From Heterobilharzia americana (lineage: Eukaryota > Platyhelminthes > Trematoda > Strigeidida > Schistosomatidae): DNA of 64,000 bases. The DNA lies in NCBI GenBank assembly GCA_944470555.2, contig OX104132.1, forward strand, positions 10,797,755-10,861,754, written 5' to 3'. A model generated the notes under the pieces. The model searched no databases, had not been told where the DNA came from, and saw nothing but the letters and a program-made list of their open reading frames with translations. The translations under genes were made by a program, and so were the position numbers. This document shows positions 7,327-38,000 of the stretch, in pieces (within the stretch, counting starts at the first letter, position 1; the number at the start of each line of letters is the position of its first letter).

Positions 7327-7544
7327 TTATTTTATTTTCTTTATTTTCATATGAGAACCATTATCATTACATTTTAACATTTTACATTTTCCACGACAAC
7401 AATCTTTACTTTTGGTACAAAAATATCCATTTGGCAAGCATCGAACACATTTACCTTTGAGTCCTTTTAACTGACAAACACTACCCTTGCAACATTGTTT
7501 ATTTGGTAATTTACGACATTCTTCTCCAAGTTTTTTACAAACAC
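7327..7544 (-). CDS. Exon 2 of the cystine-knot gene
   Basis: Encodes all mature cysteine motifs after the first Cys, which is split across the junction, and ends in a Lys-rich tail before TAA. An open frame extends further upstream into the intron (to 7593), but the ATATTTTAG acceptor and the matching exon 1 make 7544 the better boundary. Confidence 0.8.
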
Positions 7545-16479: not shown

Positions 16480-16812
16480 TTACGGAGCTTGTTCGATATC
16501 TATTCCTACTAAGTAGGTTAGGATTAGTATTAAGCTCAAACTGTATATTGTGTCAACAGACCAAATGGCTTTTACACTATGACCCAAGCATTTTGCCAAC
16601 ATTTGAGGGGCTTTGAGATTAAACGTGAATATCGTGACCAGATAATGTTGGCTTCCTGTAAATATTCCATTTTACCTTCTCATTAATACAACAACCAGAA
16701 AAGAAATACTACCATTTTATCTTTCCAAAGTGATGAATATAGGAGAGTATTCATTGTAAAACTTATACCTGAATGCAAAGACATTGACAAGAAAATAATC
16801 GGAAAAAACATA

Positions 16813-16950
16813 TTTATTCACCTAATTTGTCTTTTCACAAATACTAAAACGGGAATATCTAATGATCATCCTCACCAGTTGTTTTAAAGAGGACAAGGTA
16901 TGAAAAAATCAGTGCCATCGAAACAAAAAGCACAACACTGACAAAAACAG
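16813..16950 (-). pseudogene. Left-arm copy of the membrane-protein terminal exon
   Basis: Mirror of 37434-37571: acceptor, 29-codon hydrophobic frame (16950-16859) and AATAAA (16818-16813). Whether either copy is expressed cannot be told from sequence. Confidence 0.4.
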
Positions 16951-17279
16951 CTAAAGCAAGTGAGGAAAAACAAAATGAGGAATGATCAGAATAAAACTTT
17001 GTATGTTCATTTTATTCACCAAACAGATGTTCAGTGAAATAAGAGAAAATCTAGTACCTAGTCCTCTATATGTTGTTCGTCTAAGATGAAGCATCTAGTT
17101 GGTACGATTGCAGATATGTATAATTTACATTCATTAGAGTGACATATCCGGTTTCGCTTACCTGATAATCACTAAGCTAAGTATATAGTTATTAATCTAT
17201 GGGAAACAGATTACTACAGAAACCCATTCCTTTTAAACATGCTCCATTGCAACCCCCCTATGGTCAGACCAAGATATGA

Positions 17280-17600
17280 CACCAATTCATGAGGTCTCTT
17301 AGTGTTGACTTGAGCCGTGTGGGGAGATGTAGAATGCTTGGTTAGGGTCCTGGAGACCAAAGAAATCACTACTTGAAGACTCTTGGTGACATGGCTGAAA
17401 ATCGCTCACAATGACGTAGATGTATTCACTCTTTGACATCTTCGAAAGCTTGAATATTCGCTCTAACTTTTATCTTCAGATTATCTATTCACGGATACTA
17501 CTTTGTTTACTTTATCACCCCATTTCTATCCATTTGTTATTTGCGTACTACTGTGAAGTGTAGCAACCTGAGCCAATGCACTCCTGTGAGAGGTTCCACG
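17280..17600 (+). mobile_element. LINE 3' end fragment
   Basis: Contains GCCGTGTGGGGAGATGTAGA, ATGCTTGGTTAGGGTCCTGG and TACTACTGTGAAGTGTAGCA, shared with the larger fragment at 42060-42490 and mirrored in the right arm at about 36785-37105. It is a 5'-truncated 3' end of an endonuclease/RT LINE. Confidence 0.65.
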
Positions 17601-19337
17601 TTGTTTTTGTCAGTCAATTAGTCACTCTCTGCGTCACTAACATCTAAACGAGGTTTCAAGTTTCAATAGCTGTGAAGTAAATCCAATAGAGTAGCCAACA
17701 ATAAGTAGTAACAGGCTTTGCTGATATATTTTTTAGCGAGAGACACTACCCAAGGAAATTTCAATAAATGGATTGTGCTCAGAAATATAACTTACGTGAA
17801 ATTTGCGTGGTACGTAGGGAAAAACGATGTATCATGCATATCACCTGAAGACAGTGACTGCTAATTCTACAATAGTAGAACAGGCAAATGATGACATCTG
17901 CTTGTTGATATAATTGCACTGATTTGGCATAACTGAGTCAAAGGTTGTCATACAGCTCATAATACAAATGTGGAGATTCAATTAGATGCATACCAGAAGA
18001 TATAATGAGACCAGTAATGATCATTAATCAATAAAAAAACATACATAATATAGAGAGTATAGAAACTGAGTAAGATATGTTCCTAAATACCAACAATAGA
18101 GACAAAAACAACCGAAGGTAACCGACTCCCCAGTCTGGGAAAACTGACCCAATTTTCGACTACTACATGAATCCTTACAAAGATTTTATTACTACCTAGA
18201 GGTTTGATAACAGATGATTACTGAATCTGGAACTAGACAGGTTTGTTCATATTTGTCTTTACCATGAAAATTGATAAGTATATATCAGGCCTATGATTGC
18301 CTGAGGTAGGTCTGCACAAAAAGACATATAACAACTGCAGATCAAAACACAATTTCCATAAACCCATATTATAATGTTTAACTAGCTAAAACACTTGATC
18401 ATAAATCAATGAGGTATTTGGATCGAACACCACCCTATTTACCAAGATTTAAGCAGTGAGATGGTATTATCAACCCGCACGCATTAGGTTTTATTCATAG
18501 GCTAGTGCGAAATCCCGCATGTATCTGGATAGTTATTCGTTATTTATCATTCCTGAGAAATGACTTACGAGAGTTTTCCAGACAATTTGACTCACTCTAG
18601 TTTAGAATTTTGTAGCATTACCTGAATGCAACTTTCCTACTAAGTACACTAGTGTATAAAATAACATCATAAATATATCGATCTACGTCAAAATCCTTGT
18701 AATCTGTATAGATGAAGAAAGCTAATATCCCAATTATTTAAAAAAATAGCACCACGTGGACGAAAAGTCGACGAAGACGAAGAAAAATCTTGCTTAGTTT
18801 GCCAATAAATCCAGTCAAAAACTGCTCTGAGATAGGTCTCTGCTCAATCCCTATGATAAACCACAACAACTAGCACCTACCATATGCAGAGTTATCCTTG
18901 GAGTTTTCAGTTCTACGTAACCATTTAGTTGGAGTTCTTTTACCGACAGGATGTTTAGCATTTGATTTTCAGTGTACGAAGTAATTTGCAGTTTTTTGAA
19001 ACCCTAAGCTGCGTACTATCTGAAAGTATATATATAGCATATATTTTTAATTTGTCGATATCAAAGCAAATGCGATATTCCTATGATCACTGAATCACAT
19101 CCACCTTACTGATTCCTACAAAACGGTGTACATTGCATTTGCTGGTTTCGAATAAGCATAACGATAATCATGAAAAGAATAAACCCTACGACCATTCATG
19201 TCCAGCGACCTTAGAGACAACTGATTCCAGGTAAATATTGATGAAGTGTTGTACCTGATAAAACAAAAGACTTAAATCCTTGAATCAACAGGCTACTGGG
19301 AGCTAAAATGTTTTGCAATCTACATGATCCAACTTAC

Positions 19338-19445
19338 CTTTAAAAACCCCTTGTACCAGTCTTGAATCTCCGTTTCTGTAAACGATGTTTGATTCAGTAA
19401 TTCCTCGACAGCATCTTGCTTCAGTTTCGGTTGTTTTTGGCCCAT
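19338..19445 (-). pseudogene. Orphan duplicate of NCS exon 1
   Basis: All 108 bases match the coding exon at 34939-35046 in reverse orientation, including ATG (19445-19443) and the GTAAGT donor at 19337-19332. It encodes 36 residues starting MGQKQPKLKQ and ending WYKGFLK. No exon 2 or 3 equivalent was found to its left on the minus strand, so I call it an orphan exon. Its upstream region is cut about 540 bp from the ATG by the LTR element. It could still be transcribed and trans-spliced or spliced to an unknown exon. Confidence 0.85.
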
Positions 19446-19982
19446 AGACTGGTAAAAATTACGGTTGGAGTTCCGGACAAATCTTTCAGTTTACACTCAA
19501 CCTAAACGTAGTATTCATAAAAAGTAACACAATGTAGCACAAGACTGCAACTTTTTTCAAACTAGAGACTGCACCATACGAATTACCTTACTACAGATTT
19601 GAGAACTGATCATCCACTTAGTATTTTTTTCTCTAAATATCTCTAAATATAATTTTGAAAAAAAAATAACCCAATTATCTATGAGATAAACAGAACAGAT
19701 CATCTTATTTTCAGTTTAAGAATTACTTCCAGAGAATAGTTTTACGGAGTTGATTCAGAATGGTTCCAAATTAAAAAGCGGAAATAAGAGAGTACAAGCC
19801 ATAGAATCAGACACCCAGAATCAACGTTAAATCTGGCACACAACTGCGTACGCCGTTCTACCACACTTCACAATCCTATACAAAGAACAACTGGATACGA
19901 AAAGTGATATCATGGTGGACAAACGAGTACGAGAGAAGAGACAATTTGAAAACAAGGTTACTTAAAAACATTCAAAAGCATG

Positions 19983-19986
19983 AAGC
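19983..19986. repeat. Target-site duplication, left copy (AAGC)
   Basis: AAGC here and at 24622-24625 flank the LTR element. The uninterrupted site is at 34398-34401 (GCTT on plus) in the other arm. Confidence 0.85.
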
Positions 19987-20418
19987 TGTAGGGATGCGTG
20001 TTACAATTCCGTAACGTTCGATCAACCCTACTTAATTTGATGTGCTCTAGTACCTGCTTAACCAGTACTTTACCTAACGTGTAAGTACTGGTAACAAAAC
20101 ACAAATCAAAAGAACTGATACGCAATGTATTTAAAGGAGCTATGTATTTAAGGTAAATGTAATAATAATGAATGAGGGAAAAGTTTAATCAACTTATCTG
20201 GCTTGTAAGGCTGAACTAGGGACTCGGAGTACGTGCGTGGTGATCAGCACAATGGAGCGCAAAAATGGCGTCCAAGCCTGCTCGGATGCATGCTCGTTAA
20301 AACAAAACTTAAAACACCCTAAGCATCCGGAGGCAAGCTAGAGATTTATTTAGTTAATTTAATTTAAACTATTTATTTTAGCCCTAGTTATATTTTGGTG
20401 CCAGGAAGGTGCACTACA
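19987..20418 (-). repeat. 3' LTR (432 bp)
   Basis: On plus it starts TGTAGGGATG and ends GTGCACTACA, with 5-bp inverted ends TGTAG/CTACA. It matches the other LTR except at about position 33 (C versus T) and at the penultimate base. Confidence 0.95.
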
Positions 20419-20420
20419 GG

Positions 20421-20436
20421 TTATCCCCCTCCTAGA
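20421..20436 (-). promoter_or_regulatory. Polypurine tract
   Basis: On minus, AGGAGGGGGATAACC lies immediately before the 3' LTR, the expected primer position for plus-strand DNA synthesis. Confidence 0.75.
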
Positions 20437-21049
20437 AGGTTGTTGGGATACCGGCAACCTTCGATCCTAGGAGGCGACTGCGAGGCGGACACGCAACACC
20501 TTTCCATATTGGTGATGGAGTAGGTGACGTGTGGGTCTCCGAAGCTAGTGCAACTATGCACACCTACGAGGTAAGATAACTTTGCGTCTAGACGCAACCC
20601 TTCTCGCAGTGGTGGAAGGTGACCCAAAGCCTCCGTCTACTTTTCCCTATTGCTTCTTAATCTACCGGGGAGTGTACAGGGGGAAATTGGTACAAAGAGA
20701 ACCGAAGAACGATCCAAGTAGCATCGTCAGCGGCCAATTGTATCCAATTTTCAACGCATTTTCTAGGTTCTGCAAGAAGAAAGAAATGGGACATTAGAGT
20801 GCTAAGAAAAGGAAAACCAAACAATTCGAAGTGGGAGGAGTACAGAAAAAAAAATAATAACCAACCAAAAAAAGTTTTCGGAATTTAAATTGTATTTTTG
20901 ATTTTTCTTTTTTTTTTTTGAAAAAAAAACTGTTTGCAAAGTAGTAAACATGACTTTTGAAAACTTTAGGTATGAAAACGCATTGAAAGTGTATGCCACG
21001 ACAAAGTAGTTGAAACTCCGAATTCACCAAGTGTGAAGTTGCTCTGGGG
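20437..21049 (-). other. Noncoding 3' region of the LTR element
   Basis: No conserved frame. It includes A- and T-rich runs around 20845-20935. Short frames on either strand look accidental. Confidence 0.55.
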
Positions 21050-21275
21050 CTAATTAACGAACTCGGCGTATCGCTTGGGCCAATGTACACGCCTCCCAGC
21101 ACGTGTAGAGGTTACTGGATCAGTGTTACTAGACGTGGCTCTTTTAGAAGGTTCAGGATACGCGCGACTAAACGAGTCTGTTAGGGAGTCCGGCGGCAAG
21201 GGTCTGGGTGTGCCTGTGGAGGTGTCGCACAATATTGACACTTCACTGTTCAGGAGCGGTAACGCTGTATCTTCA
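21050..21275 (-). pseudogene. Integrase remnant: N-terminal edge fused to C-terminus
   Basis: On minus, a segment reading VSILCDTSTGTPRPLP, which precedes the integrase zinc finger in this clade, is followed directly by a C-terminal tail ending RAGRRVHWPKRYAEF, the usual pol end. No zinc-binding HHCC region and no DD35E core lie between. A deletion of roughly the whole integrase core has joined these ends, near 21190-21200. Confidence 0.7.
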
Positions 21276-21669
21276 GAGAGGATGAGTGTTGAAGTTTTTC
21301 AATCTCCTCGTCTGAATCCTGAAGTTCGGCAATCTTCCGTAAGTCGACTGCTCGAGGCAAAGTAGTGGTGCAAACGCGAGACAGTGCGTCCGCGACAGGG
21401 TTATTCACACCAGAAATATGACGGATGTCCGACGTGAATTGCGAAATATAATCTAGGTGACGTAATTCACGCGGTGAATATCTGTCAGTAGTGGTGTGTA
21501 AGGCATACGTCAGAGGTTTATGGTCGGTAAAGATGATGAAGTCACGACCTTCCACAAAATGACGAAAATGTTTCACTGAGGCATATATGGCGAGCAGTTC
21601 CCTGCCGAAAGTGCTGTACCGCATTTCGCAGGTGGATAACTTCCGGAGAAGAATGCAACTGGGATCCAA
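21250..21669 (-). pseudogene. pol fragment: RNase H domain
   Basis: Has the RNase H connection CEMRYSTFGRELLAIYASVK, FTDHKPLTYAL and RHISGVNNPVADALSR, the standard end of Ty3/Gypsy RNase H. It is one frame off from the preceding RT piece: the break lies near 21650, where a short C run is one base shorter than the frame needs. A further one-base break near 21272 separates it from the integrase remnant. Confidence 0.85.
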
Positions 21670-22118
21670 GTGTGATCCGAAAGTTGTTGCAACACAGCTC
21701 CAATGGCCGTGTTAGAGGCGTCAACCGCAATGCTGAGAGGTAGGTTTACGTCTTGATGCACCAGCATCGTGGCGTCTGCTATTGCGGTTTTGATCTTGCG
21801 AAATGCTTCTAGTGCCTCCGGAGTCAAGCTGAAAGTTTTACATTTACTTTTCAGCAGGTCGGTCAGTGCAGTCAAAATGTGTGCACATTGGGGAATGAAG
21901 CGACGATAATAGCTCACCATACCCAGAAACACACGCAGAGCTTTAAGTGACGCTGGGACTGGGAAGTCTTGGATCGCCTGTACCTTTTCAGGTAGTGGGC
22001 GAATGCCTTGCTCGTCGATAACGTGTCCCAAAAATTTTAGTGAACGAACGCCAATTTGGCATTTGGCCAGGTTGACTGTCATCGAATGCTCTGACAGTCT
22101 GGCGAAAACCTGTTTCAA
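21573..22118 (-). pseudogene. pol fragment: RT thumb and RNase H start
   Basis: Starts VFARLSEHSMTVNLAKCQ and continues LKFLGHVIDEQGIRPLPEK and FLGMVSYYRRFIP, the RT region after YLDD, then LPLSIAVDASNTAIGAVLQQ at the RNase H start. It runs out of frame after WIPVAFFS. Upstream it is out of frame with the protease-RT piece at about 22115-22130, again at a short C run. Confidence 0.88.
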
Positions 22119-23167
22119 GTGGTTAATATGGTGTCTTCGTCTGGACTAGCGATTAGTATATCGTCTAGGTAGGCATAGGCGAAATCGAGTCCACGTAAAA
22201 CATCGTGAATAAAACGTTGGAAGGTTTGTGCTGCATTGCGAAGACCAAAAGGCATACGGAGGAACTCAAAAAGACCAAACGGTGTAATGACGGCTGTCTT
22301 GGGAACATCATCAGGATGAACCGGGATCTGATGATATGCACGCGTCAAGTCAAGCTTACTGAAGATAACCGAGCCTTTTAAAGATGCAGTCAAGTCGTGA
22401 ATGTGAGGGACTGGGTAACGATCTGGAATCGTTTTAGCGTTGAGCCTTCGGTAGTCACCACAAGGCCTCCAGTCCATGCCATTGTTCTTGGGTACCACAT
22501 GCAAGGGTGAAGACCATGGACTGTTGGATGGTCTGATTATTCCCATTTCAAGCATGTGTTCGAACTCGGCTTTTACAGCACGCAGTTTCTCCGGGGATAA
22601 TCGCCGTGGTTTCGCAAATACTGGAGGGCCAGTCGTCGTTATGTGATGAGAAACGTTCGAAGTCACACAAGGGACACAACGACTTGGCTTAAAGACATCC
22701 GGAAAGGACTGAATGATAGACGCGTAGGGACTAGAAGCGTCCGTCGTGCAGTACACGGGACTGAGGGGCGGCGTCTTTGTGACTATACCGGAAACAGAGA
22801 GTGTTGTGGTAGAATCTATCAACTTATGCTTGCCAGCATCTACCAGCAGCTGATAGTGCTGCAAGAGATCCATACCAATAATGCCGGTGGTCACATCTGC
22901 CACTATGAAAACCCAACGAAAGGGACGACGCAATCCAAGGTTGAGATCGAGGAATCTCCGACCATAGGTTGTGATGGGCGAACCGTTGGCGGCACGAAGT
23001 TGCAGAGACATTGGCCGCAGACGCTCTTCCTTCGTAGGTGGGATGACGCTAGCTTCTGCCCCAGTGTCAACTAGGAAGCGTATCCCAGAATGTCGATCAG
23101 TGACGAAGAAGAGGCGACATGGAAGTGGCTCGCCAGCGACGTTAGTCGCCGTCACGTGCTGGCTCAC
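22115..23167 (-). pseudogene. pol: pol fragment: protease and RT palm
   Basis: 350 codons in the -1 frame relative to gag. Residues 34-37 are DTGA, the aspartic protease active site. RT motifs follow: [32 protein letters not shown] and YLDD at residues 333-336, all intact. The frame begins with GTG overlapping the gag stop and has no ATG at its head, so it should be made by frameshifting as Gag-Pol. It stops just after YLDD because of a frame break, so the polymerase is truncated. Confidence 0.9.
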
Positions 23168-24000
23168 ACGTTTCCCGCCTGGTTAGCCTCGAAGGTGCAA
23201 GGTCGAGTGCACTTTTTGGCATTGGCACCATAACGTTTATGGTACCAGCACAACCTGGGTTGTGATTGTCGCGATTTGGAACGTCTGCTATCGGTACGGG
23301 AGGCAGACCTGTTGCGCGAGCGAGACGTGCGACCTTTGTAAGAACTACCAGACCGCATTTCGTTCCTGATGCTGCACAACTCTTCATACAATTTTGAGAT
23401 GTGAGTTATAACATCGAAACTTGTTGGCTCAACAGCCGAGGGAGGATTTTTGAACGAATCCGTGGCAGTAGACAGTGCAGCTGAGATACTAGTGTTGGGT
23501 TTCGTAGCATCCACAGCTCTGTCAGCCGCTTCCGCCAACTCTATTAAGGGGCACTTATGGAAGGGTGCGAGGATCCCTTGAACCGACTGTGGTAACCTCT
23601 GTAACCACAGTTGCTTGAGAAATGCTTCATCAATGTTGAAGTCAGCAATCAGCTGCTTCATCTGACGAAGCAGTTGCGTCGGCTTGCGATCACCCAGATG
23701 CACATCCCTGAAAAGTTCTTGCACTTTCTGCTGGTCAGTAAGTGCAACACGTTTGATGAGGGCGGTTTTGAGGCGATCGTAAAGATTCGGTGCTGGGTCA
23801 TCTAGCACATCTGACACGTCTTCAATCACATTTTCCGGTAAGCTGACGATGACTAAGTTGGACTTAGTTTCTTGTGATTGAATGTGTCTCAAGGCAAACT
23901 GAGCTTCCACATGGGAGAACCATGCAGATGGTCTGTGGGCCCAGAAGGTGGGAAGCTGGAGGGTTATGGCCATCTGCGCAGTCGAGTCGTTATCCGCCAT
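23164..24000 (-). CDS. gag: Gag of the LTR element (intact)
   Basis: 278 codons from ATG at 24000. The N-terminal capsid-like part includes [20 protein letters not shown] and [20 protein letters not shown], typical of Gag in the CsRn1/Kabuki/Boudicca group. A Ser/Arg-rich basic stretch (about residues 225-250) precedes the zinc knuckle C-x2-H-x9-C-x3-C (CWYH...C...C, about residues 252-268), the unusual CHCC form of this clade. The frame is undamaged, unlike pol, and ends two codons after the slippery heptamer. It would form the particle for reverse transcription in the cytoplasm. Confidence 0.9.
23170..23176 (-). promoter_or_regulatory. -1 frameshift slippery heptamer GGGAAAC
   Basis: On minus, G GGA AAC is in the gag frame, followed by GTG TGA. 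Slipping back one base gives GGG AAA CGT GTG, exactly the pol frame. X XXY YYZ heptamers of this type are established -1 signals. I did not establish a downstream pseudoknot. Confidence 0.75.
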
Positions 24001-24167
24001 TGATCAGGGAATTAACGAGGCACGATAGTGATAATAAAAAAATTACAATGCAAAAATAACCAATGAGGAGTGCAATAATATAAAAAAAAACGCTAGACGT
24101 GCCAAAAACAAAATTAGGCCAGACAAATCAACGCAAGAGAACAAAGGTACTAGACAAAATAAGAAGT

Positions 24168-24187
24168 GATACTCGGGCTCACCAATT
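24168..24187 (-). promoter_or_regulatory. Candidate tRNA primer-binding site
   Basis: Just inside the 5' LTR on minus: TTGGTGAGCCCGAGTATC, a few bases after the LTR end. The TGGTG start fits pairing with a tRNA 3' end; I cannot assign the tRNA. Confidence 0.55.
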
Positions 24188-24189
24188 TT

Positions 24190-24621
24190 TGTAGGGATGC
24201 GTGTTACAATTCCGTAACGTTTGATCAACCCTACTTAATTTGATGTGCTCTAGTACCTGCTTAACCAGTACTTTACCTAACGTGTAAGTACTGGTAACAA
24301 AACACAAATCAAAAGAACTGATACGCAATGTATTTAAAGGAGCTATGTATTTAAGGTAAATGTAATAATAATGAATGAGGGAAAAGTTTAATCAACTTAT
24401 CTGGCTTGTAAGGCTGAACTAGGGACTCGGAGTACGTGCGTGGTGATCAGCACAATGGAGCGCAAAAATGGCGTCCAAGCCTGCTCGGATGCATGCTCGT
24501 TAAAACAAAACTTAAAACACCCTAAGCATCCGGAGGCAAGCTAGAGATTTATTTAGTTAATTTAATTTAAACTATTTATTTTAGCCCTAGTTATATTTTG
24601 GTGCCAGGAAGGTGCACTAGA
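24190..24621 (-). repeat. 5' LTR (432 bp)
   Basis: Identical to the 3' LTR except for two positions. The outermost bases on the element strand read TCTAG in place of TGTAG. Promoter elements are not clear; ATGTATTTAAAGGAGC on plus gives TTTAAATACAT on minus, a possible TATA-like box. Confidence 0.93.
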
Positions 24622-24625
24622 AAGC
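24622..24625. repeat. Target-site duplication, right copy (AAGC)
   Basis: Second copy of the 4-bp duplication; the next bases GATCAAAAAGCATGC continue the right-arm sequence. Confidence 0.85.
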
Positions 24626-25735
24626 GATCAAAAAGCATGCAAACCTGTACCGAAAAACTCGGCCACTAGGAGTCATCAACATTACGTAAATGCTAATTTC
24701 TGGTATCTCCAAGACATCACACAGCGAGGCAGTCGACACTTAAGTGTACAGCTGAGGCCGTTAGTCAGGGACGTAATTGACCTGTGCCACGTCTTGTTAT
24801 GGCCACCCTGAACTATCTTGCAGTGTGATTCAAATACACCCAGCCTAGCACGTCGGCGTAGGCGGTGGATCAGCATGCGTAACATATGTCAAAGACATCT
24901 CAGTCAACTAAGGTTCACAATCTCACCGGCTGACTTGCAGGCTTTGTCTAGTACTCTTCATCTGGCCTCAAAATTGCCAACATGGTAGTTACACGATACG
25001 CGAGAAATCCTATGAAGACACCCGTGATCGAAAACCTATGACCGCTTCATGTCTTCTACTTTCAACAGCCACGTCTCACAGCAGTAAACCAGGGATAACG
25101 GAATGCAACGCGGAGTACTCGTCCTTCGATAGAGAGTCAGATATCTCGCCAGTCAGCGCCACAGAGGACGCAGGTCGGCAAGTGCCAAACGGGCCTTCTG
25201 TATCCGAGATGAGACTTCGCCAACAATTTCGTTTGGGCTGGTGCGAATCACCAATTAAGTGAAGTGGTCGATACATCCAACAACTCCACTCCCTATCATC
25301 GACCTGGGAGTGGTTGAAAACCAGTCCTACAGCATCATCTTACATTTGACGACACACGTGACATGCATGCAAAACACTCAGATTTCTGCTCAACGCGTTC
25401 CGAAAACTCTATCTGCATTTTGGTAGCGTCTTCTAGCAGGACAACATCACCTGCATACTCCAAGTTAACCAGATGACCTCCAGGAAGTAGATCAACTCCT
25501 ATGGAGTCAGACGCACCTAAGTTCATGCCCATCAGTACGTCTATGAAGAAGTTAAATAGGAACGGTGACAGTGGACATCCCTGTCGAACACTGTGAGTTG
25601 TCGTCAATTCAGATGACAACCCTCGATAAACCCTGATACGGCTGTGTGAGTTCAAGTAGAGAGCTTTCATTAGCGTTATATAATTTCTCTACCTGATATC
25701 ACGCTGGGTTTACTCAGGATGACCTCCCCTGTCAC
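24626..25735 (-). mobile_element. Endonuclease/RT LINE 3' part in the left arm
   Basis: Mirror of 33334-34397 up to 25689. On minus it encodes RQGCPLSPFLFNFFIDVLMG (RT motif B) and YAGD at 25457-25446, where YADD is expected, so the catalytic site is broken in both arms. The near-identity to the right arm ends at 25689. The next about 40 bp (25695-25735) match a more 5' part of the right LINE (around 32355-32395), so this copy lacks about 0.9 kb there. Confidence 0.8.
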
Positions 25736-27200
25736 GTTCAGATAAATATCGGCTGTTTCCTCTCATGAAGCTTGCTTGGCGTGCCAGTCTGGCAACTGCG
25801 CACGGCTTGTGTTTCTTGCCTCTTTCCTCCAGCTAGTAAGTCTCACCACTTCAACTGATGCGTGACTCTGGTCTTTTTGGGGAATTGCAGAAAACGACTC
25901 CGGAAACAGCCTGCTTCGTTCATCTTGAGAGCGTCAGACCATTTTTGCCGAGTTACTATGGTAAAAGTGGTGACCTAATTTATCAAGCAAATCATCTGAG
26001 TACAATAAAACTTCCTGCACGGCAATAACCAAAGTGATGACACCAAGGTGGGAACGTTTATCAAGCTAACACTCGGACTACGTTCTGTGTGATTTCTTTC
26101 AGAATATGTAACATGTGGAGTGCACAGACACACAATATGGTAACAGCTTCAGAAACATGGTCCTACAAAAAAGATTGGCTAAATGTAGGATAATATGGTT
26201 TTTCGAAAGCAGTCACAGTGCTTTATGGGACTCTCCTGTTTGTCATCCACTAAGTGGTATAATTTAGCAACCCTTACTTCTTATCCGCTCTCACTCGTCC
26301 TGTCTTAAATTCATGCTGCCTTTCTCGAGATGCCTAAGCAAACGAGCGGAAGAACTCGGATTATATCAGCAATACTTTAAAGTCCTTACAAGTGACACTT
26401 ATGAACTTCATAGCCAGAAATCACCTCTACGGTACATAAACCAAATGGTTGGAGAAACCCTCCTCGTCCACGGAAATAGTGCAGCCTAGCAATACAAAGA
26501 CTTTTGGACGGATAGCAAGGCTTCACAAGCCATCAGGTCACTTCCCTCGTACTTCTTGTTTTGTCAAAGGCTGGGAGTTCGTCAAAGGTATAGTCATCCA
26601 AGTTGTGGATCAGCGCACCCAATTTCTCAATACCGGTGAAAAAGGCATTGGATTGGATCCATAGCAAAAATACAGCACTTACTGTCGAACAGTAAGCACT
26701 CAACGTGGAACCTTTATAGACCAACAGGTAGTTCGGCCAGCTGTGAAGACTGAAACATGTTAGCAAATCGTTGTACTGACAGTAAAGGTGGAGGTGGTAG
26801 TGCTTATCAATAAAAGTATGGACACCGCTGCGAGATAACAATGCTTTTTGTAGTTTTATGAAGAAGAATGATTTTTTTCTGTATCCGGGACGGCAGGGGT
26901 CTAATGGATCTGGAAGTGAGTTTGGAAACATATTACCCAAGGTTTTCAGCACAGCTTTGCCTAAAGGAGGGCGGCAGTGTGACTCACCAGGGATCTGTTT
27001 CAGCTTGTAAATGGCCGTCGTTTTTAGACTGACTAAGGTTCAAGAAATCATACGGCGTTCAAAACTGAATGGACTTCCATGATGATGCCTAACAACCAGT
27101 ACTGAAGGAGTTTTATTTGTCCCTACCGTCCCACAGGATTAGCTTTTCAACGAATATTCATGTGAGAGAGATTATTTGCTGCTTAGGGGAAAGCTGCTGT
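25736..27200. other. Spacer: degraded LINE-like and unassigned sequence
   Basis: The first few hundred bases may continue the diverged minus-strand LINE. The 139-codon minus-strand frame at 26533-26952 has no domain I recognise; I do not call it a gene. Confidence 0.35.
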
Positions 27201-27720: not shown

Positions 27721-30355
27721 GTTAATAGCTTTTACTGTGGATGATTAGATGCAACCTGCATAGTCACAGCAGCATCAGGTTTCCAGCAGGCACTTTGAAT
27801 CAGATAAGTATTGTGGCATATGGTAAGTATCTAGTGACAGAAACCGGATGAATTCTGCACTTTATGAACAAGCCATTTACTTCTTTCTATTCCGCTGGCA
27901 TATCCACAACTTGAGTGTTTATCTAATATAATCGCTGCTTCGCTTAACTACCGGAGTGCTAGCAAAGCATGCAGATCTTAGCGTCACAAGTGTCCGCAGA
28001 ATCAATGGCCCAGATTTCAATGAGATTCAACATTGATGCTGACCGTCGTTGTTTAACTGGACTCACTGAGCTGAAGGCGCCCGGTCAAGCATCCTGGCCA
28101 TTTGGCACGCTGTCGTGTTACGTTGCGCCGCTCGTATTCGACTCTCTAGCCAGTTAGTTGGAACGCAGCGGTGCCTTAGCACGACCTCGCAAATATACTA
28201 CTCCATCCCACTACACTATTGAGTTCTTTGCTGGTCTCTTATTCGTGGGTCTATAACAAGTTAGAATAATTAGTGATTGGCCTTTGCGTCTGTCGAGTTC
28301 ACACTAGGACACTTCTTGAAACATCTTCCTAAAATGCCTACTGTTCCCCATGAATACGTCAGATGTGCCTATACATTAAAAGTCACTTCAGATATTCGTT
28401 GTTATTAAGGAGTAAATTTTCACCATGTTTAAATTTGAGTGAAATTGCCGGTTATTCACCATGTTCTGTAGTGGTAGTAATATGACAACCCTTTAGCTTT
28501 GAATATATCATTTCTGTCTTCCCTATTGAGTTGTCAGCAGTGGGAGATGTTTTCATAACCTCAACTACGTATTTTTCCCTTATTGTGAGAGGACAAACTC
28601 TTAGAAGGTCACAGCTAGTTCTTTAACAAACCTGGTTTAGTATAATTCCTTAGAGTTCTTCGATGGGGGCTTCAGTGCTATCTCTATGAGGATAGTACTT
28701 AGTTCGGAGCTGTTCCGAACCAGCTGACTTTGAGGGTCCATTTAACCTTTTCTCGCGTGTAAAGTTTCATGACGTATCAACCCTTGCATAACAGCTCATC
28801 GGCCCACGAGGTACCGTTTGAGGGACTAGACCAGGCGTAACTATCTCAAATGTTCCTTCAAACTTGAGCCATTCACCGTCGCTGGACGAATCGGGATTAA
28901 GTGACCAGTACGTAAGTGTCACCCGTTACTTATAACCACAGCGGCTGAATCTGGGCTTTGATCATATCACTGACTGTTAGCTCAGAGGACAGGACTGTTT
29001 AGTCCATACTAGTAAGAGGAGAAGAAAAAGCTATTCAACTCATCACGTTCATGCCTAAACACCAGGATCAAAAGCTCGGGGTCTGGAGTAGAAGCGTGAT
29101 GCATATCCTTCGAAGCATGCTGTATGAAAGCATTCTCTCTAAAAGTCAGAAATAACCGGTCGTCGAACACATTTCTGGACCATCACAATGACAAAGATCA
29201 CAGCTATGATCTACAGACACTCTTGAAGGGGTAGCGTTTCATCAATCTCCAAATGCCTTCAAACGGAAGACAGACATCAGTTCTGGGATCAGCCCAACTA
29301 ACTTAAAGTATCCCAGATGTGCTTTCTTTTGCTGTTTATTAGCTACCAGAATAATCATAACGTCTCCAGTGTGTTTCAAGAATTGCTGGGAGAAAACTGA
29401 AGAAGAAAGTGCATATTTGAGACCTACTCCCAGTATCACAGTTTCAGAACTTAAAAAACTGGTGCTGGTGTGAGAACTATCATTTCGCCCCTTTTCAACA
29501 AGAGTTTATGGAGCTTTGAAGGCTGTAAACTATGATGCTAGATGAGAGGGATCAAAAGGCATCAGTTTCCTATGCAGCCACTACTGAGGCGCTTGACTAA
29601 ATTTGTTTGAGAACTGAGGTCTAAAACGACCGGTTGCCCTTGATATGTATCGCATGGACTGTAAAAGACCCAGAGGGGACTCGAGAGTGGCTTAGAACGT
29701 CCTGAACACCCCTGGAAACACACTGCGTCGCTTACTGAGTCTTCGTACCAATCTTACAGGATATACGCAAACTAAACCTAAAATGTGGGAAGTTAAATGT
29801 CGACGCAGTTCCTGTTCCCTAAGAGCTGTTAAACCCTAGAATTCTCGCCTGGCAGAGAGTATCCCGGATACTTCATATCTATCCTTAAAACGCTAGCTTG
29901 ATACGTTTTTCAGATATGGATGGGATCTCAGAATCAACTGAATATTTAAGTTCTAACCACCCTTTTTAATTCTCCATTTAATTGTACACTGGTCAAAATT
30001 TCAGGAACTAATAATTCATAGATTCTAGATACAGAAGTCAGTTAAGTGAAAGCCTCTATTCTGTTAACAGTCATCGGGACCACTTAAACATTTGATGTTG
30101 GACGTTGGCAAGTTCAAATCAATGCGCCACTTTCCTGTTCTGAATTAGCCTGGTTTTGTCGCACTTCGATTACTTCTTTAATTCGTCCACTACATATAAT
30201 CGTTATCAGGTAAAGTTTTATAATGCTCATTCCTTTTTAATAGATTTGTATCCACTGACATGTGTTTGATATAAACCGACAGGTCTACAGACCCGCGGTT
30301 CCCACTTTATGTGGTGAGATTAAATTGCTCGAAATCAGCTGGTTTCATTATTTAT
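27721..30355. other. Spacer, unassigned degraded sequence
   Basis: No intact exon or repeat family recognised. It probably contains more decayed LINE sequence, but I could not anchor it with motifs. Confidence 0.35.
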
Positions 30356-30357
30356 GG

Positions 30358-30358
30358 A

Positions 30359-30390
<32 letters not shown>
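30358..30390. repeat. (AT)n microsatellite
   Basis: About 16 uninterrupted AT units. Confidence 0.9.
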
Positions 30391-30393
<3 letters not shown>

Positions 30394-30899
30394 CTTCGTT
30401 CCCAGTAGGAGTTAATTCGTGACCCATTAACTTGAAGCAAAATGTGCACAGGCTTCACCGTTGCATTTAAGAATTTGGGACTTGGTGTTTTATTGTTTTT
30501 CGTTGATTATAGCTTGATGATGAATTACGGATTGTCCAAAAATCTACATAATTGCATTGTGAGTATGCACCATTAAGCAGACCGAACGCCAGTGTGTTAG
30601 TCGTAGTGTTCGGGCTTGTACATCGCAATGGCCCAGATCTATGCTGGTGGAACGCTTGTTCCTTACAGGTACTACCGTACCAGAAATGTCTATTGGTTAG
30701 TGGTTAGAAAAAGAAAAGCTGTCATGATAGTGTAAATTTCTACGCTATGATGAGGCTCTGAGGACTTTAATGGGAGTGTGGGGGGGGGGGTCACTAATGT
30801 ATTTCCCGTAGATGAGTAGGAAAAAAAGCACTCTGCAGCCTTGAGCGTATCGTGTGGTAGGCAGTGAGCCACATCTAATGTGTGAATGCTAATGATACT

Positions 30900-30995
30900 A
30901 CCTGGTTGCTTTAACCTCGGTAGGGAGAGTGGGGCTCGAACTCGTGACCCATTTGTTGTCATCTCCCTTAACCAATGAGCTTGGATGACCAACAG
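30900..30995 (-). repeat. tRNA-like SINE fragment
   Basis: On minus, AGCTCATTGGTTAAGGGAGA followed about 20 nt later by GAGTTCGAGCCCC, A- and B-box-like blocks. Confidence 0.5.
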
Positions 30996-31189
30996 TGCCA
31001 CGCTAAAGCTGCCTTTCCCCTTGAAAGGGAGGGAGGGAAGCATTAGCGAAGGTAGGCCCTAAAAATAGCACACTCACCTCTTCAAGGCATGCTAATGCCC
31101 GCAAAAGAGACTCATAGTCGGGTTCGGATGCAAAAAACCAAAATCTCAAAAGTACCAAGAGACTGTGACCGGCCTCAAGCGGATGTTCT

Positions 31190-34100
31190 TCTGGCTATGC
31201 AGTCACATACTACCTCTTCTCTTCCACGTACCTCGATGAGAATTAGCTTCTCATAATTTGTGCAGCCGTGAAGTGTCAATTGCCCACAGGCTTCATGTAG
31301 TACACAAGACCCATTCAAACTTAGCATGTCCTCCTCAACTCTCTCTTTTTCTTTGCCTTCACTTTCTGGTACCAATATTCAGCCTGTTACAACTTCTTAG
31401 TCTTTCTGCTACCAATGCAAAAATCAAAGCCATCCAAACCTCATTCCTAGTCTCGTAAAACCTTACTATCTATTTTATGTCAGAGCTTTCAACATCCGAA
31501 CTCAGTCAAATCACACACCAGGCATTGCTCGCCAGAACTCTCGAGTCTAGCTATGGATGTATGCTGTTTCAGAGACACGTATACGGGACCCGAGTGTGTG
31601 ACCTCAACTGGCTATAGTAGTGAATTTTCAAAATTCACGAGTATCCGGAAGTCCTGTGGCTAGCTGTCGTGTACTCGCTGAATTAGGCATAGCACTGAGC
31701 TGTGGGGCAAAAAGTGCGCTTCTTGATTGGATTCTAGTCAAAGGCCGTGTATGTGCTGTTCAACTGAACGAATCTTTAAGAACTAGGGAGGTTCATGAGA
31801 CCAACCGCTGCCTATTTGTAATCTCCGCCCGCGCACTCACCGACTGCAGTTAAGATGATGGAAAGCATGAATTCTATGAGCTGTGGATTGTGCTATGGAA
31901 AGCAAAACGTTCAGATATAGTCATAATGGCAGGTGACTCTAAACTCAAGTAATAAAGCTGAGTTAATCGGAAGATTATCTTGGGGATATTTACGGAGACC
32001 CATACCAAGTAACCGAAAACAGTGGTCGTCTGTAACTTTGCTCTGATAACCATCTGTTTCTGGTCAACACTAACTTCAGGCATAAGGCGAGACAATGCCG
32101 CACATGGCGTCCGCCAACATCAAACCAACGATGGAGACATATATCATATTGCCACAAGCCATCGTTGGAGAGGATCAGCGCTGGTTGGCAGCTTTTTCGA
32201 GAGTACCTATTTGGACCACAATCACGCACAAGAGCGTACTTGTGTGTATTTGGGTCTTACTGGTGGTAGAAAACAGTAACCAATTTAGCCTACAGGTGCT
32301 CGATTAGAGGATGAGAACATGAAGTAAATAATCAGGGAAAAGTTAGGTAAGCATTTACCCAAACGTGACAGGAGTGGTCATCCTGAGTAAACCCGGCGTG
32401 ATATTAAGTCTTCTGTAGGAACACCAGTAAAGACAGTTAGTAACCTGCACCCGAAGACTAGCAAACGTCATTGGATTTCCGAGGTATCATCCTAACTGAT
32501 TGATACGAGAAGACTGGTTCTAGCTCATTCTGACCACAATGAAGAGCAAGTCGGCCAAGTGTCTTCGCAACGATCGGGAGCAGTGGTAGGTAACGAAGGT
32601 GAGAGAAATGGGTAAGGCTCCAGGGTTTGGTAACACCCAGCAATTATTTAGGCTTTTGAGGATGCCCGCAAGAAGAAAACGATGGTTAGTGACACCATCA
32701 CCGAAAAGGATGGGACACTGATAGGCTCCCAGGACAGGGGGCTAGAACGTTGGGCAGAACACTGTGAAGCACAGTTCAACTGACCCTCAGCAACGGTTCA
32801 GTTCCCCAGCGTCCAGCCTGAACCTGAATGGGGCATAGATGTCGGTCCTCTAAATGTCCTTGAAGGTGAAAAGGCTGTATCTAACCTGAAAGGATGGAAG
32901 GTGGCAGGACCTGGCAGTTCGCTGCGCGAAGTTTTCGAGGATGGAGGTGGAAAATTGCTAATCAAAGTGACAGGTAGTAGGTAGTGTATGGAAATCGGCC
33001 TGCTTCACTAGTCATTCCAGTCCATGAAAATGGAGAGAAGTCCCCTTGTGACAACTATAGGGGAAATAGTTTGATTAACGTTGTGTCCAAAATTTTGGGG
33101 TTTATAGTTACCCGACGCCTAAGTGGAGCTGGAGAACAGCAAACCCAAGAAAATCACCCAGGTTTCACACCTGGACGAGGATGCGTTGGATATATCTTCA
33201 TCCTTCGACAGGTTCTGGAACACGGGCATACTAACCGGTGGCTGACACTTGCCAAATTTCTTGACCTGAAGGTGGCATTCGGTTCTGTTAACCGTAAGTT
33301 GTTGTGGCAGTGTTTGACTGTAAAGGGAGTACTGAGAAATTATATAACGCTAATGAAAGCTCTCTACTTGAACTCACACAGCCGTATCAGGGTTTATCGA
33401 GGGTTGTCATCTGAATTGACGACAACTCACAGTGTTCGACAGGGATGTCCACTGTCACCGTTCCTATTTAACTTCTTCATAGACGTACTAATGGGCATGA
33501 ACTTAGGTGCGTCTGACTCCATAGGAGTTGATCTACTTCCTGGAGGTCATCTGGTTAACTTGGAGTATGCAGGTGATGTTGTCCTGCTAGAAGACGCTAC
33601 CAAAATGCAGATAGAGTTTTCGGAACGCGTTGAGCAGAAATCTGAGTGTTTTGCATGCATGTCACGTGTGTCGTCAAATGTAAGATGATGCTGTAGGACT
33701 GGTTTTCAACCACTCCCAGGTCGATGATAGGGAGTGGAGTTGTTGGATGTATCGACCACTTCACTTAATTGGTGATTCGCACCAGCCCAAACGAAATTGT
33801 TGGCAAAGTCTCATCTCGGATACAGAAGGCCCGTTTGGCACTTGCCGACCTGCGTCCTCTGTGGCGCTGACTGGCGAGATATCTGACTCTCTATCGAAGG
33901 ACGAGTACTCCGCGTTGCATTCCGTTATCCCTGGTTTACTGCTGTGAGACGTGGCTGTTGAAAGTAGAAGACATGAAGCGGTCATAGGTTTTCGATCACG
34001 GGTGTCTTCATAGGATTTCTCGCGTATCGTGTAACTACCATGTTGGCAATTTTGAGGCCAGATGAAGAGTACTAGACAAAGCCTGCAAGTCAGCCGGTGA

Positions 34101-34560
34101 GATTGTGAACCTTAGTTGACTGAGATGTCTTTGACATATGTTACGCATGCTGATCCACCGCCTACGCCGACGTGCTAGGCTGGGTGTATTTGAATCACAC
34201 TGCAAGATAGTTCAGGGTGGCCATAACAAGACGTGGCACAGGTCAATTACGTCCCTGACTAACGGCCTCAGCTGTACACTTAAGTGTCGACTGCCTCGCT
34301 GTGTGATGTCTTGGAGATACCAGAAATTAGCATTTACGTAATGTTGATGACTCCTAGTGGCCGAGTTTTTCGGTACAGGTTTGCATGCTTTTTGATCGCT
34401 TCATGCTCTTGAATGTTTTTAAGTAACCTTGTTTTCAAATTGTCTCTTCTCTCGTACTCGTTTGTCCACCATGATATCACTTTTCGTATCCAGTTGTTCT
34501 TTGTATAGGATTGTGAAGTGTGGTAGAACGGCGTACGCAGTTGTGTGCCAGATTTAACGT
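31190..34560 (+). mobile_element. Endonuclease/RT LINE, near full length, degraded
   Basis: Plus strand. A 5' UTR-like region is followed by an apurinic-type endonuclease with FNIRTQ near 31490, CLFVISARALTDCS near 31830, SDIVIMAGDSKLK near 31920 and HIATSHRWRGS near 32150. The RT runs from about 32984: GFTPGRGCV, TLAKFLDLKVAFGSVNRKLL (motif A), RQGCPLSPFLFNFFIDVLMG (motif B) and YAGD at 33566-33577 in place of YADD. A C-terminal segment LRMLIHRLRRRARLGVFESH (34141 on) and a 3' UTR close it. Frameshifts and the changed catalytic Asp make it inactive. The inverted-repeat boundary at 33334 falls inside its RT. Confidence 0.85.
34398..34401. other. Empty pre-integration site of the LTR element
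   Basis: GATCGCTTCATG here is the unoccupied counterpart of the AAGC-flanked insertion in the left arm. Confidence 0.85.
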
Positions 34561-34938
34561 TGATTCTGGGTGTCTGATTCTATGGCTTGTACTCTCTTAT
34601 TTCCGCTTTTTAATTTGGAACCATTCTGAATCAACTCCGTAAAACTATTCTCTGGAAGTAATTCTTAAACTGAAAATAAGATGATCTGTTCTGTTTATCT
34701 CATAGATAATTGGGTTATTTTTTTTTCAAAATTATATTTAGAGATATTTAGAGAAAAAAATACTAAGTGGATGATCAGTTCTCAAATCTGTAGTAAGGTA
34801 ATTCGTATGGTGCAGTCTCTAGTTTGAAAAAAGTTGCAGTCTTGTGCTACATTGTGTTACTTTTTATGAATACTACGTTTAGGTTGAGTGTAAACTGAAA
34901 GATTTGTCCGGAACTCCAACCGTAATTTTTACCAGTCT
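34561..34938 (+). promoter_or_regulatory. Upstream region of the NCS gene
   Basis: About 380 bp between the LINE 3' end and the NCS start codon. I see no clear TATA box or initiator. The region is duplicated in the left arm (19446-19823), so any promoter here exists twice, in opposite orientations. Confidence 0.4.
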
Positions 34939-35046
34939 ATGGGCCAAAAACAACCGAAACTGAAGCAAGATGCTGTCGAGGAATTACTGAATCAAACATC
35001 GTTTACAGAAACGGAGATTCAAGACTGGTACAAGGGGTTTTTAAAG
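34939..35046 (+). CDS. NCS exon 1
   Basis: 36 codons from ATG, then GTAAGT. Too short for a 60-codon scan. Identified by the NCS pattern FTETEIQDWYKGFLK and by its phase match to exon 2 (FLK/ECPTG). Confidence 0.9.
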
Positions 35047-38000
35047 GTAAGTTGGATCATGTAGATTGCAAAACATTTTAGCTCCCAGTAGCCTGTTGAT
35101 TCAAGGATTTAAGTCTTTTGTTTTATCAGGTACAACACTTCATCAATATTTACCTGGAATCAGTTGTCTCTAAGGTCGCTGGACATGAATGGTCGTAGGG
35201 TTTATTCTTTTCATGATTATCGTTATGCTTATTCGAAACCAGCAAATGCAATGTACACCGTTTTGTAGGAATCAGTAAGGTGGATGTGATTCAGTGATCA
35301 TAGGAATATCGCATTTGCTTTGATATCGACAAATTAAAAATATATGCTATATATATACTTTCAGATAGTACGCAGCTTAGGGTTTCAAAAAACTGCAAAT
35401 TACTTCGTACACTGAAAATCAAATGCTAAACATCCTGTCGGTAAAAGAACTCCAACTAAATGGTTACGTAGAACTGAAAACTCCAAGGATAACTCTGCAT
35501 ATGGTAGGTGCTAGTTGTTGTGGTTTATCATAGGGATTGAGCAGAGACCTATCTCAGAGCAGTTTTTGACTGGATTTATTGGCAAACTAAGCAAGATTTT
35601 TCTTCGTCTTCGTCGACTTTTCGTCCACGTGGTGCTATTTTTTTAAATAATTGGGATATTAGCTTTCTTCATCTATACAGATTACAAGGATTTTGACGTA
35701 GATCGATATATTTATGATGTTATTTTATACACTAGTGTACTTAGTAGGAAAGTTGCATTCAGGTAATGCTACAAAATTCTAAACTAGAGTGAGTCAAATT
35801 GTCTGGAAAACTCTCGTAAGTCATTTCTCAGGAATGATAAATAACGAATAACTATCCAGATACATGCGGGATTTCGCACTAGCCTATGAATAAAACCTAA
35901 TGCGTGCGGGTTGATAATACCATCTCACTGCTTAAATCTTGGTAAATAGGGTGGTGTTCGATCCAAATACCTCATTGATTTATGATCAAGTGTTTTAGCT
36001 AGTTAAACATTATAATATGGGTTTATGGAAATTGTGTTTTGATCTGCAGTTGTTATATGTCTTTTTGTGCAGACCTACCTCAGGCAATCATAGGCCTGAT
36101 ATATACTTATCAATTTTCATGGTAAAGACAAATATGAACAAACCTGTCTAGTTCCAGATTCAGTAATCATCTGTTATCAAACCTCTAGGTAGTAATAAAA
36201 TCTTTGTAAGGATTCATGTAGTAGTCGAAAATTGGGTCAGTTTTCCCAGACTGGGGAGTCGGTTACCTTCGGTTGTTTTTGTCTCTATTGTTGGTATTTA
36301 GGAACATATCTTACTCAGTTTCTATACTCTCTATATTATGTATGTTTTTTTATTGATTAATGATCATTACTGGTCTCATTATATCTTCTGGTATGCATCT
36401 AATTGAATCTCCACATTTGTATTATGAGCTGTATGACAACCTTTGACTCAGTTATGCCAAATCAGTGCAATTATATCAACAAGCAGATGTCATCATTTGC
36501 CTGTTCTACTATTGTAGAATTAGCAGTCACTGTCTTCAGGTGATATGCATGATACATCGTTTTTCCCTACGTACCACGCAAATTTCACGTAAGTTATATT
36601 TCTGAGCACAATCCATTTATTGAAATTTCCTTGGGTAGTGTCTCTCGCTAAAAAATATATCAGCAAAGCCTGTTACTACTTATTGTTGGCTACTCTATTG
36701 GATTTACTTCACAGCTATTGAAACTTGAAACCTCGTTTAGATGTTAGTGACGCAGAGAGTGACTAATTGACTGACAAAAACAACGTGGAACCTCTCACAG
36801 GAGTGCATTGGCTCAGGTTGCTACACTTCACAGTAGTACGCAAATAACAAATGGATAGAAATGGGGTGATAAAGTAAACAAAGTAGTATCCGTGAATAGA
36901 TAATCTGAAGATAAAAGTTAGAGCGAATATTCAAGCTTTCGAAGATGTCAAAGAGTGAATACATCTACGTCATTGTGAGCGATTTTCAGCCATGTCACCA
37001 AGAGTCTTCAAGTAGTGATTTCTTTGGTCTCCAGGACCCTAACCAAGCATTCTACATCTCCCCACACGGCTCAAGTCAACACTAAGAGACCTCATGAATT
37101 GGTGTCATATCTTGGTCTGACCATAGGGGGGTTGCAATGGAGCATGTTTAAAAGGAATGGGTTTCTGTAGTAATCTGTTTCCCATAGATTAATAACTATA
37201 TACTTAGCTTAGTGATTATCAGGTAAGCGAAACCGGATATGTCACTCTAATGAATGTAAATTATACATATCTGCAATCGTACCAACTAGATGCTTCATCT
37301 TAGACGAACAACATATAGAGGACTAGGTACTAGATTTTCTCTTATTTCACTGAACATCTGTTTGGTGAATAAAATGAACATACAAAGTTTTATTCTGATC
37401 ATTCCTCATTTTGTTTTTCCTCACTTGCTTTAGCTGTTTTTGTCAGTGTTGTGCTTTTTGTTTCGATGGCACTGATTTTTTCATACCTTGTCCTCTTTAA
37501 AACAACTGGTGAGGATGATCATTAGATATTCCCGTTTTAGTATTTGTGAAAAGACAAATTAGGTGAATAAATATGTTTTTTCCGATTATTTTCTTGTCAA
37601 TGTCTTTGCATTCAGGTATAAGTTTTACAATGAATACTCTCCTATATTCATCACTTTGGAAAGATAAAATGGTAGTATTTCTTTTCTGGTTGTTGTATTA
37701 ATGAGAAGGTAAAATGGAATATTTACAGGAAGCCAACATTATCTGGTCACGATATTCACGTTTAATCTCAAAGCCCCTCAAATGTTGGCAAAATGCTTGG
37801 GTTATAGTGTAAAAGCCACTTGGTCTGTTGACACAATATACAGTTTGAGCTTAATACTAATCCTAACCTACTTAGTAGGAATAGATATCCAACAAGCTGC
37901 GTAACGACACTGAAGGGTTAAGCTAATTGTGTACATTAGTGTTCACCATGGAAGTTTCCAGGGATAACGAAGTTTGAAGAATTATAACATGCTCTTTTTA

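Follow-up and report, generated by a model that had tools for sequence, protein, structure and literature searches.

Results

An NCS gene and an inverted copy of its first exon

The window, by which we mean the whole 64,000-nucleotide stretch of Heterobilharzia americana DNA analyzed here (contig OX104132.1), contains a neurocalcin/hippocalcin-like calcium-sensor gene of the NCS type. The coding part of its exon 1 (36 aa) was located at 34939..35046 on the plus strand by tblastn, with a GT donor and a match to P0001. Exon 2 was placed at 40627..40896 (plus strand; tblastn and PDB relatives, with AG/GT borders set by eye), and exon 3 with the stop codon at 47426..47794 (plus strand; tblastn and P0001). 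The top PDB matches of exon 2 were hippocalcin-like 1 (6e-42) and neurocalcin delta (9e-42), and EF-hand domains were found in the NCS protein with Pfam; a phage search with the protein returned nothing useful. The start MGQKQPK is common to P0001, P0002, P0004, P0005, and P0006. The PROSITE pattern for N-terminal myristoylation, PS00008, demands S/T/A/G/C/N at one position, and by eye MGQKQPK did not match, having proline at that site.

A second, letter-identical copy of exon 1 lies at 19338..19445 on the minus strand and points away from the first. String comparison showed 181 identical bp around it, and the start codon and GT donor are common to both copies. The sequence-only reading had described just this arrangement, with an identical left exon 1 pointing away and a right arm that holds the start codon, exon 1, and upstream region of a gene continuing into exons 2 and 3, and the tblastn results agreed with it. 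Within the window, exons 2 and 3 were found by tblastn downstream of the right exon 1 alone; in the whole genome, with all 17 candidates scored, exon 1 was present in the two arms only and exons 2 and 3 once. The left exon 1 copy, without exons 2 and 3, is most likely a dead (nonfunctional) partial duplicate. A hairpin-RNA function for the exon 1 copies was rejected from their orientation: transcription of the two would diverge, and therefore no hairpin RNA would be expected.

The two copies of exon 1 sit in long inverted arms, the left at 16480..25689 (minus strand) and the right at 33334..37904 (plus strand), separated by a spacer of 7,644 bp (25690..33333, no strand assigned). When the window was searched against itself with blastn, 16480-19986 paired with 37904-34398 (3507 bp, 99.857%, gaps 0), and 24622-25689 paired with 34401-33334 (1068 bp, 99.813%, gaps 0), the left arm being split by an LTR element. 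With this insertion removed and one copy of its 4-bp target-site duplication kept, the arms measure 4571 bp each and differ by 7 substitutions and 0 indels (99.85%), so that the near-perfect match without length change read from the letters was borne out. As judged from the length and identity of the match, a chance origin is excluded. Each arm comprises upstream DNA, exon 1, and a portion of intron 1, as in a DNA-level copy of part of the gene. No near-identical second copy of the spacer was found in the sequence searched, and its LINE portion was 67 to 74% identical to other loci. An ORF and Pfam scan gave three spacer ORFs of at least 100 aa, with a Pfam match in the LINE ORF alone.

The left arm is the derived copy

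The direction of copying was indicated by an old LINE on the plus strand, recognized from RVT_1 (32981-33685, E=2e-17) and from its genomic copies, that spans the right inner edge (31164..34260, limits approximate). The right inner edge was crossed without a break in 9 of 10 matching LINE loci (6/7 when near-identical loci were counted once), the exception (L022) matching on either side and not across. The left inner edge was crossed in 0/10 loci, nine of which stop at 25682-25690 and L022 at 25659. Because the LINE is unbroken at the right inner edge and cut at the left, and with intron 1 continuing from the right arm to exons 2 and 3, sequence comparison identifies the right arm as the original and the left arm as the derived copy. 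The truncation of the LINE at the left inner edge had escaped the sequence-only reading.

The spacer begins, right at the left inner edge, with a short LINE-family piece (25690..25747, minus strand), 52 bp of which are 88% identical to the reverse complement of 32353-32404. An origin of this piece as templated filler from the neighboring LINE was dropped even though its best match is there. Since 25 other LINE pieces in the genome match it at 75 to 85%, it may be an old LINE fragment that was present at the target. The left flank is unique at the edge, and the start of the spacer is unique beyond the LINE piece; therefore, no empty insertion site was found in the genome searched.

Two other origins for this layout were considered. 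A chromosomal inversion with staggered breaks leaves an arm, a spacer, and an inverted arm, as seen here, with the duplicates on either side of an inverted spacer. Such an inversion needs an ancestral left inner edge, whereas the LINE copies make the right inner edge ancestral, and it was rejected as highly improbable. Long inverted arms around a spacer could also belong to a mobile element, as its long terminal inverted repeats, with the exon held there by chance. However, no further full arm was present among the matches scored (40 of 13348 candidates), exon 1 occurs nowhere else, and no target-site duplication was seen by eye around the left arm. Moreover, outside the arms nothing in the genome closely matched the outer tip of the left arm (16480..16581), the sole hit being 71% identical over about 110 bp. 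A mobile element was rejected as more improbable still.

A Gypsy-type element in the left arm only

The insertion that splits the left arm is a Gypsy-type LTR element of about 4.6 kb on the minus strand (19987..24621, limits by our own reading of LTRs, flanks, and Pfam matches), bordered by an AAGC target-site duplication at 19983-19986 and 24622-24625. Its insertion point is some 540 bp from the copied start codon, on the upstream side. Its gag-like, protease-like, RT, and RNase H pieces sit in separate frames; DUF7041, RVT_1, and RNase H scored above the Pfam cutoff and the protease matches below it, and no integrase match was found in a scan of five minus-strand ORFs. The LTR pair showed 1 difference in 430 bp by BLAST, or 2 differences in 432 bp if the terminus is read two bases further.

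The element also bears on whether the arms are real. Library preparation or assembly could have joined, in inverted orientation, a piece of an alternative haplotype or a chimera made by amplification. The divergence of 0.15% could then be heterozygosity, near-identical inverted pairs recur in the assembly, as a systematic artifact might, and a literature search found no description of the assembly. Inverted chimeras are reported to be common in some amplified long-read libraries, mostly as two overlapping alignments on opposite strands (PMC9484634). A copy with two separate junctions would be harder to obtain from chimeras of that type. The four arm edges adjoin differing flanks, the left outer flank being unique beside its edge; the two junctions are clean, a 7.6-kb spacer separates the arms, and the window contains 0 N. 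An LTR insertion with a target-site duplication in one arm, and the clustering of tip differences described below, also count against an artifact, which we consider unlikely.

Differences between the arms cluster at the outer tip

The arm alignment placed 4 of the 7 differences in the outer tip of the left arm (16480..16581, minus strand), a concentration that the sequence-only reading had missed. The tip thus differs at 4/102 bp, compared with 3/4469 bp in the interior. End clustering in the window arms remained after strict trimming (p=0.008). Alignment overrun or errors at the junction could account for two of the four. The differences found 85 bp and 101 bp in from the edge are well within true homology. 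One interior difference sits 11 bp from the LTR insertion.

A very recent inverted duplication without gene conversion would take the 0.15% divergence as a measure of age and the tip differences as junction errors. It is favored by the interior divergence of just 3/4469, and error-prone synthesis at junctions is known from break-induced repair. End clustering was seen in five inverted pairs before trimming and was gone in three once trimmed (p=0.52 for C8:46 Mb, p=0.43 for C5, and no remaining difference in C6b), which likewise speaks for it. In the C8:84 Mb pair, known from the untrimmed comparison only, 2 of 3 differences are no more than 9 bp from the inner end, where the alignment may have overrun, and in C2, whose tip has a third local copy, the strong clustering is confounded. 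Against this explanation stand the two differences well inside true homology. In addition, the LTR pair should postdate the duplication, yet at 2/432 it was not below the arm interior and was if anything more diverged, although this comparison is weak (p=0.065, or p=0.31 using 1/430). The LTR pair was less diverged than the arm tip (p=0.014). A conversion-free duplication may account for the locus, though we judge it rather unlikely.

The differences lend moderate support to gene conversion between the arms, as a hint and not proof, given the few sites. Our preferred account is a real segmental duplication, followed by LTR insertion and then by probable conversion between the arms, and we give this account as a whole a probability of about 0.5. 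In it, a 4.57-kb piece comprising the 3' part of the LINE, the upstream region, exon 1, and some of intron 1 would have been copied as DNA, flipped, and inserted 7.6 kb upstream of its source, possibly through template switching during replication or through break repair that used no long homology. The Gypsy element, positioned within the left copy, would have entered afterwards. The arms would then have been kept near-identical, probably with the help of arm-to-arm gene conversion that was poor at the outer tip. Among the three origins first offered from the letters, duplication was retained, with the left copy now taken as derived; gene conversion gained moderate support, and a misjoin of haplotypes became less likely in view of the distinct flanks, the spacer, and the lack of N.

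Other near-identical local copies in the genome

In addition to the window arms, the count of near-identical local sets came to 11 inverted, 7 direct, and 1 mixed, obtained with partly biased probes and with several sets judged by equal scores only; the existence of such pairs in the same genome favors the duplication account. Equal scores in the RVT_1 survey mean little because its top copies are young families at the consensus score. Close same-score direct pairs from that survey (C4:1.92/1.93, C6:18.60/18.61, C7:11.02/11.03, and C1:15.40/15.41 Mb) were not counted. The count also omits a direct 740-bp pair (98.65%) in a 144-kb stretch of C6, which may represent two LTRs, close LINE pairs whose scores were unequal (inverted at C1:98.79/98.82 and C3:28.35/28.36; direct at C8:66.57-66.59), and a third, shorter copy at C1:58.30, with which C1:58.3 would become a mixed set. 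An excess of inverted over direct local copies was not established.

A wider reading holds that spaced, near-identical inverted local duplications are widespread on H. americana chromosomes, with arms homogenized by gene conversion and with the NCS locus as one of them; we regard it as doubtful. If true, local inversion-duplication would be a main route to new gene fragments in this species. Should the recurrence hold in reads, schistosomatids would join nematodes in owing a notable share of new sequence to inverted duplication, and gene conversion in a fluke could be measured directly from the arms; should it fail, the pairs would warn of a systematic flaw in the assembly.

Comparison with known systems

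Taken singly, the locus is an ordinary partial duplicate, well dissected. From its size against the karyotype, the contig is presumably autosomal, unlike sex-chromosome palindromes. Resemblance to mammalian sex-chromosome palindromes such as human Y P6 lies in inverted arms more than 99.8% alike, a unique spacer, and possible conversion (PMC3723533). The P6 arms are about 100 kb (PMC3723533), whereas the arms here are 4.6 kb, hold no intact gene in both, and are candidates only for conversion.

The event appears to be of a type already known, the partial adjacent-inverted gene duplicate. In Caenorhabditis elegans, newborn duplicates are often adjacent and inverted, and about half of the young pairs are partial or chimeric (PMC2728529). 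The NCS duplication resembles the partial adjacent-inverted ones described there in being local, inverted, a few kb long, and near zero in divergence and in taking part of a gene. It differs in its flatworm host, its 7.6-kb spacer, its content of one exon of three, and the LTR element in one arm. The C. elegans hsp16 inverted repeat, whose identity is ascribed to gene conversion in a review (PMC3966223), is likewise an inverted duplicate, with whole genes in the arms there and exon 1 only here.

Architecture of the duplicated locus

Heterobilharzia americana is a blood fluke with mammalian hosts, and the genome containing the window (C6:10797755-10861754) comprises 665 Mb in 337 contigs. On comparison of the window with itself, the left arm (16480 to 25689, minus strand) and the right arm (33334 to 37904, plus strand) aligned over 4571 bp each with 7 substitutions and 0 indels once an LTR element interrupting the left one was set aside. 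The arms are separated by a spacer of 7644 bp (25690 to 33333). A near-perfect inverted duplication, without net length change apart from the LTR insertion and with single-base differences only, had been proposed by the sequence-only reading and was thereby borne out.

The right arm carries exon 1 (34939 to 35046) of an NCS (neurocalcin/hippocalcin-like) calcium-sensor gene, which continues, as had been claimed, in exon 2 (40627 to 40896) and exon 3 (47426 to 47794), all on the plus strand and with borders read by eye. Together these exons encode the 248 aa of the H. americana protein P0001, to which the window-encoded protein was a 100% match; the solved structures closest to exon 2 were hippocalcin-like 1 and neurocalcin delta. 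The identical exon 1 described as pointing away from this gene was also found, with exon 1, the donor site and their surroundings on the minus strand of the left arm letter-identical to the right arm, while exons 2 and 3 were absent from the left arm.

P0005, a second NCS protein entry from H. americana in which a stretch of exon 2 is altered, was used to search the whole genome. With all 17 candidates scored, exon 1 mapped nowhere but to the two arms, and the window locus was the sole site for exons 2 and 3; the remaining matches were relatives at 32 to 38% and a single short match (64%) 13 kb farther right. P0005 is encoded on a contig of 44,697,867 bases, and its exons map to the window locus alone; it therefore probably derives from a different assembly or haplotype.

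The N-terminus of the NCS protein, MGQKQPK (34939 to 34959), is identical in P0002, P0004, P0005 and P0006; the myristoylation pattern does not allow proline at the position where it occurs here. Three type I hammerhead ribozymes, a type known from schistosome repeats, scored above the Rfam cut-off at 46611 to 46655 (plus), 46937 to 46981 (plus) and 51917 to 51961 (minus), two of them within NCS intron 2.

Origin of the left arm

An old LINE, which contains a reverse transcriptase domain, runs across the right inner edge. The junction 33333/33334 was aligned straight through in 9/10 matching LINE loci, or in 6/7 distinct loci when near-copies (L031/L032, L033/L034 and two loci on contig C2) were counted once; locus L022 matched on either side without alignment across. 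None of the 10 loci spanned the left inner edge, nine matches stopping at 25682 to 25690 and L022 at 25659. Intron 1 continues to exons 2 and 3, which makes the right outer edge ancestral as well. Both left-arm edges are new, so that the left arm is the copy that was inserted, in inverted orientation. Inversion through staggered breaks was contradicted by the ancestral right inner edge and the two new left edges. The left outer flank adjoining the edge was unique in the genome (13/13 candidates scored), and the spacer begins with a LINE-family piece of ∼58 bp.

Partial gene duplicates lying next to their source in inverted orientation have already been described in worms (PMC2728529), and the NCS locus is of this kind. 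Among the literature matches listed, none dealt with inverted duplications in schistosomatids, which is no proof of absence.

The copied start codon lies ∼540 bp downstream of the LTR element, which is flanked on both sides by AAGC; the right arm provides the uninterrupted insertion site. Its LTRs differ at 1/430 aligned positions, or 2/432 with terminal bases included. Gag-like, protease-like, RT and RNase H pieces each occupy a separate frame, with the protease matches below the Pfam cut-off, and no integrase match was obtained in the five minus-strand ORFs scanned.

Divergence between the arms

Four of the seven arm differences fall in the outermost 102 bp (p ∼5e-5 against uniform placement, before trimming). 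Alignments overrun true ends, and the ends were therefore trimmed as far as the first 15 consecutive matching bp. Five differences survived this step, and two of these lie no more than 90 bp from the trimmed edge (p=0.008). The tip (16480 to 16581) has no other close genomic copy, its sole other match being 71% over ∼110 bp on contig C3. Divergence of the LTR pair was lower than that of the tip (p=0.014), though not lower than that of the arm interior. The resulting order of tip (old), LTR insertion (younger) and interior (youngest) is the pattern expected from gene conversion, although the counts are small. Two interior differences, at 33490 and 33805, lie in the LINE: 10/12 LINE copies, some near-identical to each other, share the right-arm base at 33490, and at 33805 seven copies carry the left-arm base and five the right-arm base.

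Other inverted pairs of the genome provided counter-evidence: end clustering disappeared on trimming at C8:46 Mb (p=0.52) and C5 (p=0.43), and 0 differences remained in the C6b pair. The C8:84 Mb pair had three differences, two within 9 bp of the inner end (untrimmed). In the C2 pair, 20/27 differences fell in the outer 526 bp; this tip lies in a dispersed repeat and has a third copy nearby that scores equal to the right tip, so its divergence may derive from that copy.

Near-identical local copies elsewhere in the genome

Sets at least 98.9% identical or of equal score, within 60 kb, were tallied, leaving out the window pair and an RVT_1 survey. The probes were EF-hand (55 matches), protein kinase (138), WD40 (149), LINE (best 40 of 13348 and best 40 of 8694 candidates scored), the C2 tip (best 40 of 933), the left flank (13/13, no close pair) and the spacer start (27/27). 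Some loci were chosen since their scores already stood out, making the sample partly biased. At least 11 inverted, at least 7 direct and at least 1 mixed set (C5:26.87-26.89) were obtained.

The inverted sets included C6:10891087-10893288 and 10898808-10901009 (10.89/10.90 Mb; 2202 bp, 99.91%), ∼29 kb right of the window, and C2:56755162-56773585 and 56779334-56801155 (56.76/56.79 Mb), with arms of ∼18.4 kb, a spacer of 5.7 kb and extra pieces of 3.2 kb and 168 bp in the right arm. The third C2 tip copy, at 56806541 and of equal score, is not independent of that pair. The others were C8:84.15 (99.88% over at least 2487 bp), C8:45.97/46.02 (98.9%, 1210 bp), C1:110.73, C1:58.31, C1:119.40, C3:7.58 and C274 (99.8 to 100% over 225 to 912 bp), and C8:28.14 (equal score only). 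Direct sets comprised C8:33.43 (99.45%), C1:157.97 (equal score only) and, with equal scores over matches of 53 to 57 bp only, C8:72.18/72.20, C134 (three copies), C3:55.92 and C1:48.71-48.73. The last (C1:48713775-48735017), with three matches at exact 10,594-bp steps, and C1:46.80 (46800092-46806549), with three equal-scoring WD40 matches at exact 3178-bp steps, are putative direct tandem triplications, judged by score and spacing.

Near-identical local copies, many of them inverted, thus recur in this genome. Such recurrence also fits a systematic artefact, amplified long-read libraries yield inverted chimeras (PMC9484634), and literature searches turned up no description of the assembly; an assembly or library origin of the window repeat is nevertheless unlikely in view of its two separate junctions, the spacer between the arms, the LTR insertion in one arm only and the sequence differences between arms. 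No excess of inverted over direct sets was established in the tally from partly biased probes. That the genome is strewn with spaced, near-identical inverted local duplications homogenised by gene conversion, the NCS copy among them, is a tentative reading given a probability of about 0.2, lowered from 0.3 because the spacer-start probe added four direct sets.

Elsewhere in the window, palindromic elements at 9299 to 10309 and 7793 to 8288 match their own reverse complements at 86% and 67%, respectively, and an ORF at 7330 to 7635 (minus strand) contains a UPF0506 domain (E=1e-9).
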